In this document: positions 1 to 50,991 of the stretch, in pieces | Layout: each line of letters opens with the position of its first letter | Position numbering within the stretch: position 1 is the first letter of the stretch | NCBI RefSeq assembly: GCF_000725345.1 | Contig: NZ_CP008852.1 | Span: 4,456,001 to 4,520,000 of the forward strand | Length of the DNA stretch: 64,000 nucleotides | DNA from: Pelosinus sp. UFO1 | GTDB lineage: Bacteria; Bacillota; Negativicutes; DSM-13327 | Direction of reading: 5' to 3' | Program-made: the position numbers and the translations under genes | The notes under the pieces: model-generated | The model's input: the letters and a program-made list of their open reading frames with translations, nothing else | Databases searched by the model: none | What the model was told of the DNA's origin: nothing

Positions 1-430
1 TTATAAATTTGTCATCCGCTCTTACAATCTGTGCCTTTTTTATAGTTACCAATTTACGCAGAACATTTTGTTCTACTGCACCCGCCTCTTGAATCATCTT
101 TACAAAGGGCAGAGAACTGCCATCTGCAACTGGGGGTTCAGCAGCATCGATTTCGACTAAACAATTGTCTATTTCTAATGCATAGAATGCTGCTAAGAGA
201 TGCTCCACGGTAAACACTTTGGCCAAGCCATTTTCTAAAGTGGTCGCACGCATTGCATTGGTTACATTACCAGCTATTGCTGCCACTTGTGGTTTTCCTG
301 GTAAATCAATGCGAGAAAAGACAATCCCCGTACCTGGAGGTGCTGGATTTATTGTTATAGTTACATCTTGACCTGAGTGTAATCCGATACCTGTGTATGT
401 TACAGCTTTGGCTACTGTTCTTTGATGCAT
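1..430 (-). CDS. lpxC: UDP-3-O-acyl-N-acetylglucosamine deacetylase LpxC, N-terminal part (cut by window edge)
   Basis: First committed step of lipid A synthesis: a zinc-dependent deacetylation of UDP-3-O-acyl-GlcNAc in the cytoplasm. The 143 visible residues start MHQRTVAKAVTYTGIGLHSG, the classic LpxC N-terminus, and contain the E76-H77 pair in TVEHLLAAF (the equivalent of E78/H79 in E. coli LpxC, from the family's known active site). The ATG at 430 has an AGGAGG Shine-Dalgarno about 5 nt upstream. The remainder, possibly including a fused FabZ domain as in some bacteria, lies outside the window. It is the last visible member of the envelope cluster and follows an ABC ATPase gene. Confidence 0.95.
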   Translation of the reverse strand, partial: MHQRTVAKAVTYTGIGLHSGQDVTITINPAPPGTGIVFSRIDLPGKPQVAAIAGNVTNAMRATTLENGLAKVFTVEHLLAAFYALEIDNCLVEIDAAEPPVADGSSLPFVKMIQEAGAVEQNVLRKLVTIKKAQIVRADDKFI

Positions 431-1426: not shown

Positions 1427-3784
1427 TTATTTAAACTTCATTTTCCTTTGATTTAGTTTTTGCAATAGACCTGGACGTCCGTTGGGGATGACGATTTCTC
1501 GCATGATTTCATCAATCGATAATCCTAAGGATTGTCCTGCCATCATTTCATCAGTTGAAATTGGGCTAATCCGCTCGGTATAACAAGCAACTAGAAGTCC
1601 TAATACTGCACCAATAAAAGGTACAGCAATCCACGGTAAATAAGGAATTCCACCTCTACCTAAAATAAACATGCTAGTTAATAGTACAGCACCTATGACC
1701 ATACCATATACTCTTTCTGTCGCAGTAAATACTCTAATCATTCGAGTTAACATCCCACGCCAACCTTTGGTCTTTTGTTTTTTCAAAGTGCTGCTGCGAC
1801 GAATTACTGTCATAATTGCCGTATGATCTAGAGCTAACAGCAGTATTGTCACAATGATAGCTGTCATACCTGATAAAACTGCTCTCACTTCATTTAGCAC
1901 ATTATACACCTCACCACGAGTATTAGGTTCAATAACGCCTAATTCTGTAGAGTATAAAGATACATTCTTATGTCCTACTTGACTATATACCACGGGCGCA
2001 ATTGCATCCGTGCTAACATTACTAGTCGTAAGAATTTGGATACGTTCACCAGGAATTACTTGTCCCGCAATAAATTTATCTAATAAAGCTACGGAGTGGC
2101 TAATGTCTTCATCTTTCAGATTTGGCACAGAAGCCGCCATATATTCTAACTGCCCTGTCACAAGAGGAATATTGAGCTGTCCTAATTGTGCTAAACGACC
2201 ATTGATGCTATTCATATTTTTCTTAGAACCGTCGATATCAAAGGAACGTAAAGCTGCAATGGTAGTTTGACCATTCACTACAATATTATCGATGGATCCT
2301 TTGGCTTGGCGAGCATCAGCCGCCACACGATCCAAGGCTCCTAACCCAGATTTTAGATTACTTAAATTTCTTTGGGAACTAACTAGGTTATCCACGGTAG
2401 CACCAACGTCGCTATTTACTAACTTAATCACTTGCAGTGTATTAATTAAACCACCCATGGATTTTGATGAACTATCTACTTGATTCTGTAAAGAAGAAGT
2501 ATCGATGTTAGCCAAACCACTCGTCGCGGCTTGAATCGTCGTACCTGCTGACTGTAGACTGGTTAACGTTTGATCCATCGCATTGATACTCTTGCCATAA
2601 TTGTTCAGGGTATCGGTTGCAATGTTAGTTAGATTTTGAGTATCTTGAGCAAAACCAGGAATCTGATTTACAATCTTTGTCGTTTCTGTTAACGCGGAGC
2701 CTAATTGCTGCCTTGGATTATTATAGGTCACAGTACCTACCGGTGCACCTACTACATTATTCATCACTTTATAACCTTGGTTATTAGTAAGAAGTGTACT
2801 GTCACCTTGGGTAATCGTGCCTTCTGCTTTACCATCAGGACGAACAACTCCAATTTGTACTAGTACGTTACCTTTTTCTACTGGATTGCCTGTTGTTAAA
2901 ACACCGCTGCCAGCAAATGCAACCATATCACCTTTTACCAATTTTTCATTCCCATTTGGTGTAATGGTAATTTGGGAAGCATAGGCTACAAGGAATCGTT
3001 TCAATTCCATCATAGTACTTACTGTGTAGGTCATATCGTCATTTCTGCCATCAATAGAAACATTTTTGGCATATTCTAGCTTCATCTGGGATTGCATAGC
3101 ATCAGCGATAGATTCTCCCATACGAATTGGATTTTGCGGTTCACTCCCCACTGGAAAGCTGATTTCAACAACTTGGTATTGTTTTAAGATGGTTTTGATT
3201 TTTTCTGTTACTAGAGTTGCTTTATCCAGTGACGATAATACCACACCAATGGAAGAACCGTCGCGAAAAGCAAAGCTTACACCATCAATTTGTGAAACTC
3301 GGTCCATCAGCATAGCTTTGGCCCCTTCTGGCACACCCCGGATGGTTAGGCGTGGTTCTGTTAAGACTCCAACCCCTGCACCACCAGGAATGCCCCCAAA
3401 GATTTTACCCAAATCTTCATAGGTCTGCTTTGTTCTATATTGTGCAGGCACAGCAATAAAGAAGGAGGTTTTACCTGTTATGGTTGGTCCTTCTTTCATT
3501 CGTGATCCCGGAAAAACTTCATCAATAATTTTTTGAATGTGTATTGCAGTATCTTCTTTCATCTCTTCACGGGATTGAATGATAATATCATATTCACCAT
3601 AATCGCCAACTAAACTTGACAATGTTTTGGAGAAATAGGAATTAGCTGCTAAAGATATAGAAGTAGCCAGCAGTGAACCAATCACTATACTAACCACCAT
3701 GAGAGTCATTACGTCACGATAAAAAGAATCTTTCATAATATTAAATGCGCTTAGTTTTTTAATGTTTTTCATAATAGTAGACAT
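1427..3784 (-). CDS. large ABC-type permease with extracytoplasmic domain and C-terminal EAA-like loop
   Basis: A 785-aa membrane protein, probably the permease partner of the downstream ATPase. One membrane segment lies near residues 26-48; about 580 extracytoplasmic residues follow, rich in Ser/Asn/Gln with coiled-coil-like stretches; then come three membrane segments between about 635 and 735. The last 39 residues contain a stretch with the pattern A-x2-LG-x9-I-x-IP-x3-P-x-L (about 749-774), closely resembling the EAA coupling loop of type I importer permeases. The overall topology instead resembles FtsX/LolC/MacB-type permeases. The ATG has GAGGGG upstream. Its position beside lpxC and the envelope cluster suggests an envelope role, but substrate and direction are unknown. 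Confidence 0.7.
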   Translation of the reverse strand: MSTIMKNIKKLSAFNIMKDSFYRDVMTLMVVSIVIGSLLATSISLAANSYFSKTLSSLVGDYGEYDIIIQSREEMKEDTAIHIQKIIDEVFPGSRMKEGPTITGKTSFFIAVPAQYRTKQTYEDLGKIFGGIPGGAGVGVLTEPRLTIRGVPEGAKAMLMDRVSQIDGVSFAFRDGSSIGVVLSSLDKATLVTEKIKTILKQYQVVEISFPVGSEPQNPIRMGESIADAMQSQMKLEYAKNVSIDGRNDDMTYTVSTMMELKRFLVAYASQITITPNGNEKLVKGDMVAFAGSGVLTTGNPVEKGNVLVQIGVVRPDGKAEGTITQGDSTLLTNNQGYKVMNNVVGAPVGTVTYNNPRQQLGSALTETTKIVNQIPGFAQDTQNLTNIATDTLNNYGKSINAMDQTLTSLQSAGTTIQAATSGLANIDTSSLQNQVDSSSKSMGGLINTLQVIKLVNSDVGATVDNLVSSQRNLSNLKSGLGALDRVAADARQAKGSIDNIVVNGQTTIAALRSFDIDGSKKNMNSINGRLAQLGQLNIPLVTGQLEYMAASVPNLKDEDISHSVALLDKFIAGQVIPGERIQILTTSNVSTDAIAPVVYSQVGHKNVSLYSTELGVIEPNTRGEVYNVLNEVRAVLSGMTAIIVTILLLALDHTAIMTVIRRSSTLKKQKTKGWRGMLTRMIRVFTATERVYGMVIGAVLLTSMFILGRGGIPYLPWIAVPFIGAVLGLLVACYTERISPISTDEMMAGQSLGLSIDEIMREIVIPNGRPGLLQKLNQRKMKFK

Positions 3785-3813
3785 GATTATTCACCCCTCT
3801 CCTTCAAGGATAT

Positions 3814-3875
3814 ATTATACCACGTATATCAATAAATTAAAATTAGTATATACGATTTTTATGAAATGTATATAC
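3814..3875 (-). promoter_or_regulatory. extended -10 promoter with three 22-bp-spaced GTATATAC boxes
   Basis: Upstream of the permease gene the minus strand has TGGTATAAT (3822-3814), an extended -10 element. Upstream of it are three similar boxes: GTATATC at 3824-3830, GTATATAC at 3846-3853 and GTATATAC at 3868-3875. Their starts are exactly 22 bp apart, about two helical turns, so they would present on the same DNA face. The full GTATATAC boxes are perfect palindromes. This is the arrangement expected of a cooperative operator; the regulator is unknown. Confidence 0.6.
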
Positions 3876-3895
3876 TGGAAGGAAAAAGAGTTGTT

Positions 3896-3966
3896 GAACC
3901 ACAAAGACACAAAGAGCACAAAGAAGTGTCGTATTCTCCTCTGTGTCCTTTGTGCCTTTGTGGTTT
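3896..3966. repeat. dispersed palindromic repeat, family A copy 2
   Basis: Imperfect inverted repeat with left arm GAACCACAAAGACACAAAG and right arm TGTGCCTTTGTGGTTT, in the gap between the lpxL-type gene and the ABC permease gene. Small reading frames across it, giving peptides such as HKDTKSTK, are artefacts of the repeat. Confidence 0.9.
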
Positions 3967-3995
3967 AAATATCTTTTCGTAACACTGTACAATGC

Positions 3996-4048
3996 AAAAA
4001 GCTTTGCTGGGTTCGAGGTACATCACCAAGAACAGAGCAAAGCTTTTT
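3996..4048 (-). terminator. intrinsic terminator-like hairpin after the lpxL-type gene
   Basis: AAAAAGCTTTGCT (3996-4008) and AGCAAAGCTTTTT (4036-4048) form a perfect 13-bp stem around a 27-nt loop. On the minus strand the stem ends in a T run, so it can terminate transcription just after the acyltransferase gene. Confidence 0.7.
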
Positions 4049-4059
4049 GTTATTATTAT

Positions 4060-5712: not shown

Positions 5713-5801
5713 TTGAACCGCAGAGGCACAGAGGACACAGAGAAGAAACGGGATTAAATACAAAACTCCCTCTTTGTGTTCTTTGTGTCTTTGTGGTTCA
5801 A
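5713..5801. repeat. dispersed palindromic repeat, family A copy 3
   Basis: Mixed-type copy: the left arm TTGAACCGCAGAGGCACAG is the G-rich variant, while the right arm TTTGTGTCTTTGTGGTTCAA is the A/T variant, so the arms pair only partly. It lies between lpxD and the YjbH-like gene. Confidence 0.88.
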
Positions 5802-12882: not shown

Positions 12883-13521
12883 TTACCAGTTCTGCATAAA
12901 CCTGGATAACATACCACGGATACGTTTTATACCTTGCTTTTGCAAGCGGTAAATATGAGAAATACTTACATCTAAACTTTCAGCCAATTGTTTTGGTTCA
13001 CAATCCTCTAAAAAAACGCCACTTAATACAGCATGTTCGTTACTCGGTAAACGGTTCATCGCATTCTTTACCTGCTCTATAAGATAGTTATGCTCCGCCT
13101 GACTAGAAACACCAGCTTTCGTGTCTATCAAAATATCCCTTAGGGTAATATCTTGCTCACTAGATAAAGGACTATCAATACACACGACACCGAATTTCCC
13201 TTCTCGCTCCATGTAATTGAGCATACGACCACGAATTCGTTGCGTAGCATAGAGGCTAAAAGCTACACCTCGCTTATGATCATATTTCTCCACTGCCTCA
13301 ATTAAACCAACAGTTCCTTCTTGGATCATATCCATCATTTTAGTCTCATCCAAGCGCCAGTTAGATGCTACCTTAAATACTAAAGGCTGATACTGTTCAA
13401 TGATCTTACTTCGACATTCTAAATTTTCCTTTTCTTTATACCCCTGCCACAAGTTCTCCTCTTCTTCTCTTGTTAGCAACTCTATTTTTTTCAGTTCTTT
13501 TAGATATTGATTTAAAATCAT
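12883..13521 (-). CDS. sigma-70 family RNA polymerase sigma factor (FliA/SigB-F-like size class)
   Basis: 212 aa from the ATG at 13521 (AGAAGGG 8 nt upstream). Region 2 is seen in QYQPLVFKVAS, DMIQEGTVGLIEAVEKYDHKRG and FSLYATQRIRGRMLNYMERE; a short linker follows, then region 4 with a helix-turn-helix (LAESLDVSISHIYRLQKQGIKRIRGML). Region 1.1 is absent and region 3 is reduced, so it is an alternative sigma factor. It is encoded 15 bp after tamB and before bamA, suggesting a role linked to the envelope, but promoter targets cannot be deduced. The neighbouring small membrane protein could be its partner. Confidence 0.85.
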   Translation of the reverse strand: MILNQYLKELKKIELLTREEEENLWQGYKEKENLECRSKIIEQYQPLVFKVASNWRLDETKMMDMIQEGTVGLIEAVEKYDHKRGVAFSLYATQRIRGRMLNYMEREGKFGVVCIDSPLSSEQDITLRDILIDTKAGVSSQAEHNYLIEQVKNAMNRLPSNEHAVLSGVFLEDCEPKQLAESLDVSISHIYRLQKQGIKRIRGMLSRFMQNW

Positions 13522-13536
13522 CTTAATCACCCTTCT

Positions 13537-21519: not shown

Positions 21520-21565
21520 AAAATCACCGTCCTATGTTACAAACTGAAAAAAGTAACGTTTTTTT

Positions 21566-21635
21566 ACCGCAGAGGCGCAGAGGACGCAGAGATGGATTTA
21601 TATTATATTCTCTGCGCTCTCTGCGCCTCTGCGGT
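21566..21635. repeat. dispersed palindromic repeat, family A copy 4 (G-rich variant)
   Basis: Inverted repeat between mlaE and mlaF: left arm ACCGCAGAGGCGCAGAGGAC, right arm CTCTGCGCCTCTGCGGT, middle A/T-rich. The arms pair almost perfectly over about 20 bp. It lies inside an operon, so it must permit at least some read-through. Confidence 0.9.
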
Positions 21636-21656
21636 TAAGCATATCTCCTAATACCC

Positions 21657-32237: not shown

Positions 32238-32285
32238 AAACCACAAAGACAAAAATTTTACTAATCCCATGCGCCTTTGTGGTTA
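32238..32285. repeat. dispersed palindromic repeat, family A copy 5 (short, degenerate)
   Basis: Reduced copy: AAACCACAAAGAC and GCGCCTTTGTGGTTAA flank an A/T-rich centre. It lies in the 162-bp gap between spoIIID and mbl. Confidence 0.75.
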
Positions 32286-32348
32286 ATTAACTGTTTCTAA
32301 GTAAACAATGTTCACTTGCTTCCATTCTACATTAAAAAAGAAAATCCT

Positions 32349-50904: not shown

Positions 50905-50991
50905 GAAACCGCAGAGACGCAGAGAACACAGAGGCAGGATATCTTTTTTTATTAAAATTCCTCTCAGCGTACTCTGCGCCTCTGTGGTTAA
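50905..50991. repeat. dispersed palindromic repeat, family A copy 8 (G-rich)
   Basis: GAAACCGCAGAGACGCAGAG and CTCTGCGCCTCTGTGGTTAA, with an A/T-rich centre, between the convergent aminotransferase and ilvB genes. Confidence 0.9.

Follow-up and report, generated by a model that had tools for sequence, protein, structure and literature searches.

What purpose is served by three closely similar boxes, set at regular steps in front of an ABC transporter in Pelosinus sp. UFO1, and which genes would they control? In the 64,000-nucleotide stretch of DNA analysed here (the window), a preliminary description had noted boxes at exact 22-bp steps, two of them perfect palindromes, directly upstream of an extended -10 element. 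Re-reading the positions in the sequence upheld each of these points: the boxes start on the plus strand at 3824 (GTATATC), 3846 and 3868 (both GTATATAC), they share ATATAC on the gene (minus) strand, repeated at exactly 22 bp, the two palindromes are boxes 1 and 2, and a single base separates box 3 from TGGTATAAT (Table 1). The three-box arrangement is not a product of chance. A search for ATATAC-N16-ATATAC-N16-ATATAC with up to three mismatches in dinucleotide-shuffled windows gave an expectation of 0.06 per window, and the pattern is found here with no mismatches. The 5.1-Mb genome has a single pair of GTATATAC boxes at a 22-bp step, that of the boxed promoter, which is likewise the only place where the three-box pattern (up to two mismatches) is common to all eight Pelosinus genomes.

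Table 1. Features of the boxed promoter and its surroundings (window coordinates).
Feature	Position	Strand	Remarks
lpxC start	1..430	-	first gene of lpxC-fabZ-lpxA-lpxI-lpxB-msbA-waaA-lpxK-kdsB
ABC ATPase, PF00005	528..1310	-	best NCBIfam neighbour GlnQ-like, below model cut-off
ABC permease, 785 aa	1427..3784	-	no Pfam family
Shine-Dalgarno region GGAGAGGGGTGA	3790..3801	-	sequence
Extended -10, TGGTATAAT (TGnTATAAT in relatives)	3814..3822	-	TATAAT invariant in promoter alignment
Box 3, GATATAC on gene strand (TGATATAC in relatives)	3824..3830	-	centre ~ -20.5, within -35/-10 spacer
Box 2, GTATATAC, perfect palindrome	3846..3853	-	centre ~ -42.5, just upstream of -35 position
Box 1, GTATATAC, perfect palindrome	3868..3875	-	centre ~ -64.5 from predicted start
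Family A hairpin repeat, between terminator and boxes	3894..3968	.	not part of operator
Hairpin + T-run, probable terminator of lpxD-yjbH-lpxL unit	3995..4049	-	-28.1 kcal/mol, z -6.6

Read in the direction of the gene, the element consists of TTCCA, box 1, 14 bp, box 2, 15 bp, box 3, one base and the extended -10, and the permease begins with the ATG at 3784 on the minus strand. Transcription would start near 3807, giving the box centres of Table 1, and the permease leader, its length deduced from the -10, would be about 24 nt long. Box 3 is non-palindromic, retaining the ATATAC half alone in Pelosinus and in relatives, with TG in place of the GT of boxes 1 and 2. The -35 of the Pelosinus promoter is degenerate. 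A hairpin similar to the probable terminator is present in relatives. With this terminator closing the lpxD-yjbH-lpxL unit upstream, a new transcription unit starts at the boxed promoter. The preliminary description had the array bounded by a family A repeat 20 bp away; bounded it is, but the repeat, at 3894, lies 18 bp past box 1. This copy is missing from the same place in several Pelosinus relatives, and the boxes are untouched where it is inserted. Hairpin repeats of family A, reading AACCACAAAGACACAAAG or its complement, recur in intergenic gaps of the window, at 1344-1416 (between permease and ATPase), 3894-3968, 5716-5800, 21565-21640, 32239-32290 and 50907-50990.

To compare this promoter across the Negativicutes, we retrieved the upstream DNA for most of the 56 genomes, among 300, that carry orthologues or homologues of the permease. 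Near-perfect boxes, two or more of them and 21-24 bp apart, were present in 32 of 45 orthologue promoters, representing 18 of 23 genera; shuffled copies of the promoters yielded 0.03 on average, and none of the 13 paralogous permease promoters carried such a pair. Conservation of the boxes and their spacing in relatives, on which the preliminary description had staked its reading, thus extends far beyond close relatives. The exact 22-bp step it reported holds throughout Pelosinus, where all eight genomes have three boxes with 22/22 spacing, but not in those other genera whose box 3 is clear, where the first step is 22 or 23 bp and the second 23 bp. The invariant is therefore two helical turns and not exactly 22 bp, and at this 22-23 bp pitch the boxes stand, as phased sites do, an integral number of turns apart across species. 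Outside Pelosinus, a -35 (TGGACA or TAGACA) is located between boxes 2 and 3, in most genera with an 18-bp spacer to TATAAT, which places box 3 wholly within the core promoter. In an anchored alignment the boxes, the GACA of the -35 and TGnTATAAT are held while the columns between the boxes vary, and an extended form of box 1, TTCCAGTATATACA, is conserved. Three more distant lineages (G010, G013 and G025) keep the permease gene without the boxes, and one of them, G013, also keeps the lpx synteny.

How many promoters in a genome carry the element was examined with a promoter profile built from 22 sequences and run over the 300 Negativicutes genomes, matches with E of 1e-4 or below being taken as strong. 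Forty-two genomes (20 genera and 13 families by the group codes of the genome set) gave one strong match each, a count that measures the reach of the element and not its independent discovery, since most of these genomes are relatives of the 22 profile sequences. All 42 matches fall just upstream of the permease, and the next-best matches (E 6e-4 or worse) are scattered singletons. A search for other targets, using exact box pairs as well as the profile, likewise gave only scattered singletons in unrelated places, one of them inside metB. These results support the view that the boxes are a bounded, phased, promoter-overlapping element whose sole detectable target per genome is the permease promoter. 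Because the arrangement has been kept at one promoter in 42 of 300 genomes, it is very probably a real regulatory switch.

The genes behind this promoter had been taken for an orphan ABC system, a label that has to be given up. On the same strand as the permease and ATPase, and directly after them, follow lpxC, fabZ, lpxA, lpxI, lpxB, msbA, waaA, lpxK and kdsB, so that the pair heads the lipid A cluster, and the permease-ATPase-lpx order is found again in other families. The Negativicutes outer-membrane cluster is already known (PMC5007114); the permease-ATPase pair is not mentioned in the examined passages of that source. Between ATPase and lpxC lie about 100 bp in this genome and some 90 to 440 bp in others, room enough for a separate promoter, so that co-transcription of the pair with lpxC is inferred. 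Elsewhere in the outer-membrane cluster, flanked by a TamB-like gene and BamA, is a gene for a sigma-70-family protein of 215 aa (12883-13530, minus strand) with regions 2 and 4 and a weak region 1.2; it occupies the same place in a distant genome (L118:18099-18737) and might serve the outer-membrane cluster.

The predicted structure of the permease (mean pLDDT 73.6, pTM 0.38) starts with one N-terminal transmembrane helix, continues with a periplasmic alpha/beta part and a long coiled-coil hairpin, some 200 residues in all, and closes with a C-terminal membrane region. With this model, Foldseek gave a single match under 1e-3, to MmpL5 (E 1e-5, 10% identity), and VIA-align matches were mostly to coiled coil; given so weak a match and the dominance of the coiled coil, we assigned the permease to no family. 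The permease-ATPase pair could plausibly be a trans-envelope exporter. A second such pair, without boxes, is encoded at L062:8175-13357 (G000:C1:1620174-1625356), where it is followed by an MsbA-like gene; its permease is 53% identical. These paralogous permeases (~53% identical) form a separate clade, and about eight of 13 paralogue promoters carry a related palindrome or hairpin resembling CTGCArATACTT..AAGTAnyTGCAG.

As to how the element acts, the reading we favour, with a probability of roughly 0.6, is that the boxes form a dedicated operator in the promoter from which the permease-ATPase operon, first in the lipid A cluster, is read, and serve as a repressor switch. The sites at -64, -42 and -20, on the same face of the helix (a pitch of 22-23 bp being two turns), would be occupied by a DNA-binding protein, possibly cooperatively and in the simplest case as one dimer per box. 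With box 3 between the -35 and the -10 and box 2 abutting the -35, the bound protein should keep RNA polymerase off the promoter until a signal releases repression. The core promoter is otherwise strong, with TATAAT, an extended -10 and, except in Pelosinus, a -35 close to consensus. Control may then reach lpxC and beyond. It is the position of box 3 within the core promoter that makes repression the likeliest action, while its non-palindromic form means that three equal dimers are not assured.

The boxes could instead bind an activator, with a dimer on box 2 (at -42, the class II position) and a second on box 1 (at -64) recruiting RNA polymerase and box 3 serving as a weaker site for autoregulation or fine-tuning. 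Centres at -64.5 and -42.5 are indeed classic activator positions, and the poor -35 of Pelosinus could reflect dependence on an activator. We nevertheless hold this to be possible but distinctly less probable, as box 3 lies within the core promoter and is as well conserved as boxes 1 and 2, and as a promoter with a near-consensus -35 in most genera, and TATAAT with an extended -10 in all, should need little help from an activator. Much less probable is that the boxes are promoter architecture, i.e. -10-like elements, overlapping or in tandem, that RNA polymerase itself would read. While Sporomusa-type promoters have in their box 2 a TGATATACT similar to an extended -10, and a motif scan pairs boxes 1 and 2 as a weak promoter, the polymerase needs neither the perfect palindromy of boxes 1 and 2, nor tight phasing at 22-23 bp, nor a conserved box 1 with its TTCCA flank.

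Which protein might bind the boxes? No DNA-binding gene adjoins the permease-ATPase operon in the neighbourhoods read, and a literature text search for GTATATAC brought up no regulator described for this locus. One candidate is a BusR-type GntR/RCK_C tetramer, which senses c-di-AMP and has a coiled coil that acts as a 22-bp ruler. There are several points of likeness: BusR recognises two sites whose spacing is fixed at 22 bp (PMC8517857), one of them overlapping the -35/-10, a full-length homologue is encoded in this genome (G000:C1:4959701-4960330), and over its whole length the G027 orthologue matches the BusR structures 7wjg and 7b5t. The BusR motif GAC-N22-GTC is, however, an inverted pair with a 25-bp pitch, of which there is no instance in Pelosinus promoters, whereas GTATATAC is repeated directly at 22-23 bp. 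Moreover, nine box-bearing genomes, six of them at least 93% complete, encode no full-length GntR/RCK_C homologue, and no GTATATAC is found near busR-like genes. Distribution and the differing motif rule out such a protein as the general binder, and we think it very improbable that the boxes are bound by one at all. The BusR-like gene here (L208:7702-8331) adjoins a gene for a DapB-like dehydrogenase, and the same pair is present in G027 (L198).

Binding by a HutC (UTRA)-type GntR regulator is more improbable still, despite the closest agreement in sequence. The GTATATAC core matches both the subfamily consensus NyGTMTAKACNy (PMC4494728) and the TreR box TTGTATATACAA (PMC11356801) exactly, and several sites per promoter, doubles and triples among them, are common in the subfamily (PMC4494728), whose operators include the NagR dre sites. 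The asymmetric box 3, however, does not fit the GTMTAKAC core kept by boxes 1 and 2, and the three boxes here have a fixed two-turn pitch. What contradicts a UTRA GntR as the general binder is distribution, since no UTRA protein (PF07702) is encoded in four box bearers (G001, G011, G070 and G027), of which two are at least 98% complete. The sole UTRA-type GntR gene of the present genome (G000:C1:3494580-3495254) appears to be interrupted by a stop, the TAA lying apparently between or within the DNA-binding and effector domains. A further candidate is a FadR-type GntR whose gene adjoins ispE in six box-bearing genomes (~70% identity); no boxes were found near it in five of the six and one internal GTATATAC in the other (L194), and GT and AC stand closer together in the FadR consensus (PMC4494728). 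Finally, a riboswitch or other RNA element was rejected, as the leader region has no Rfam match and its roughly 24 nt would be too short.

Phased multi-site operators are a known kind, and the boxes would add one at a biologically interesting place. The OR1-OR3 operators of phage lambda are also three in number, spaced about two turns apart and overlapping a promoter, but they are 17-bp operators with a divergent promoter pair, and no sequence relation to the boxes is claimed. The (GGTATA)3 operator of Escherichia coli NanR resembles the boxes in having three GTATA-containing repeats, which in that case are bound cooperatively by three GntR dimers (PMC8012715). The NanR repeats, however, follow one another at less than half a turn and lie beyond the polymerase site on its downstream side, whereas the boxes described here are two turns apart and within the promoter.

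Little is known of how outer-membrane and lipopolysaccharide synthesis are controlled in diderm Firmicutes, and a 70-bp element kept at one promoter over 20 genera marks where control acts, offers a ready bait for the regulator and shows the lipid A genes to be headed by an uncharacterised ABC transporter. More speculatively, a previously unrecognised regulator conserved across at least 13 diderm Firmicutes families, and apparently dedicated to one promoter per genome, may control lipid A synthesis by way of an ABC system whose permease bears a long periplasmic coiled-coil hairpin; if true, lipopolysaccharide would be controlled here by a circuit that differs from the FtsH/LpxC proteolysis of E. 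coli.
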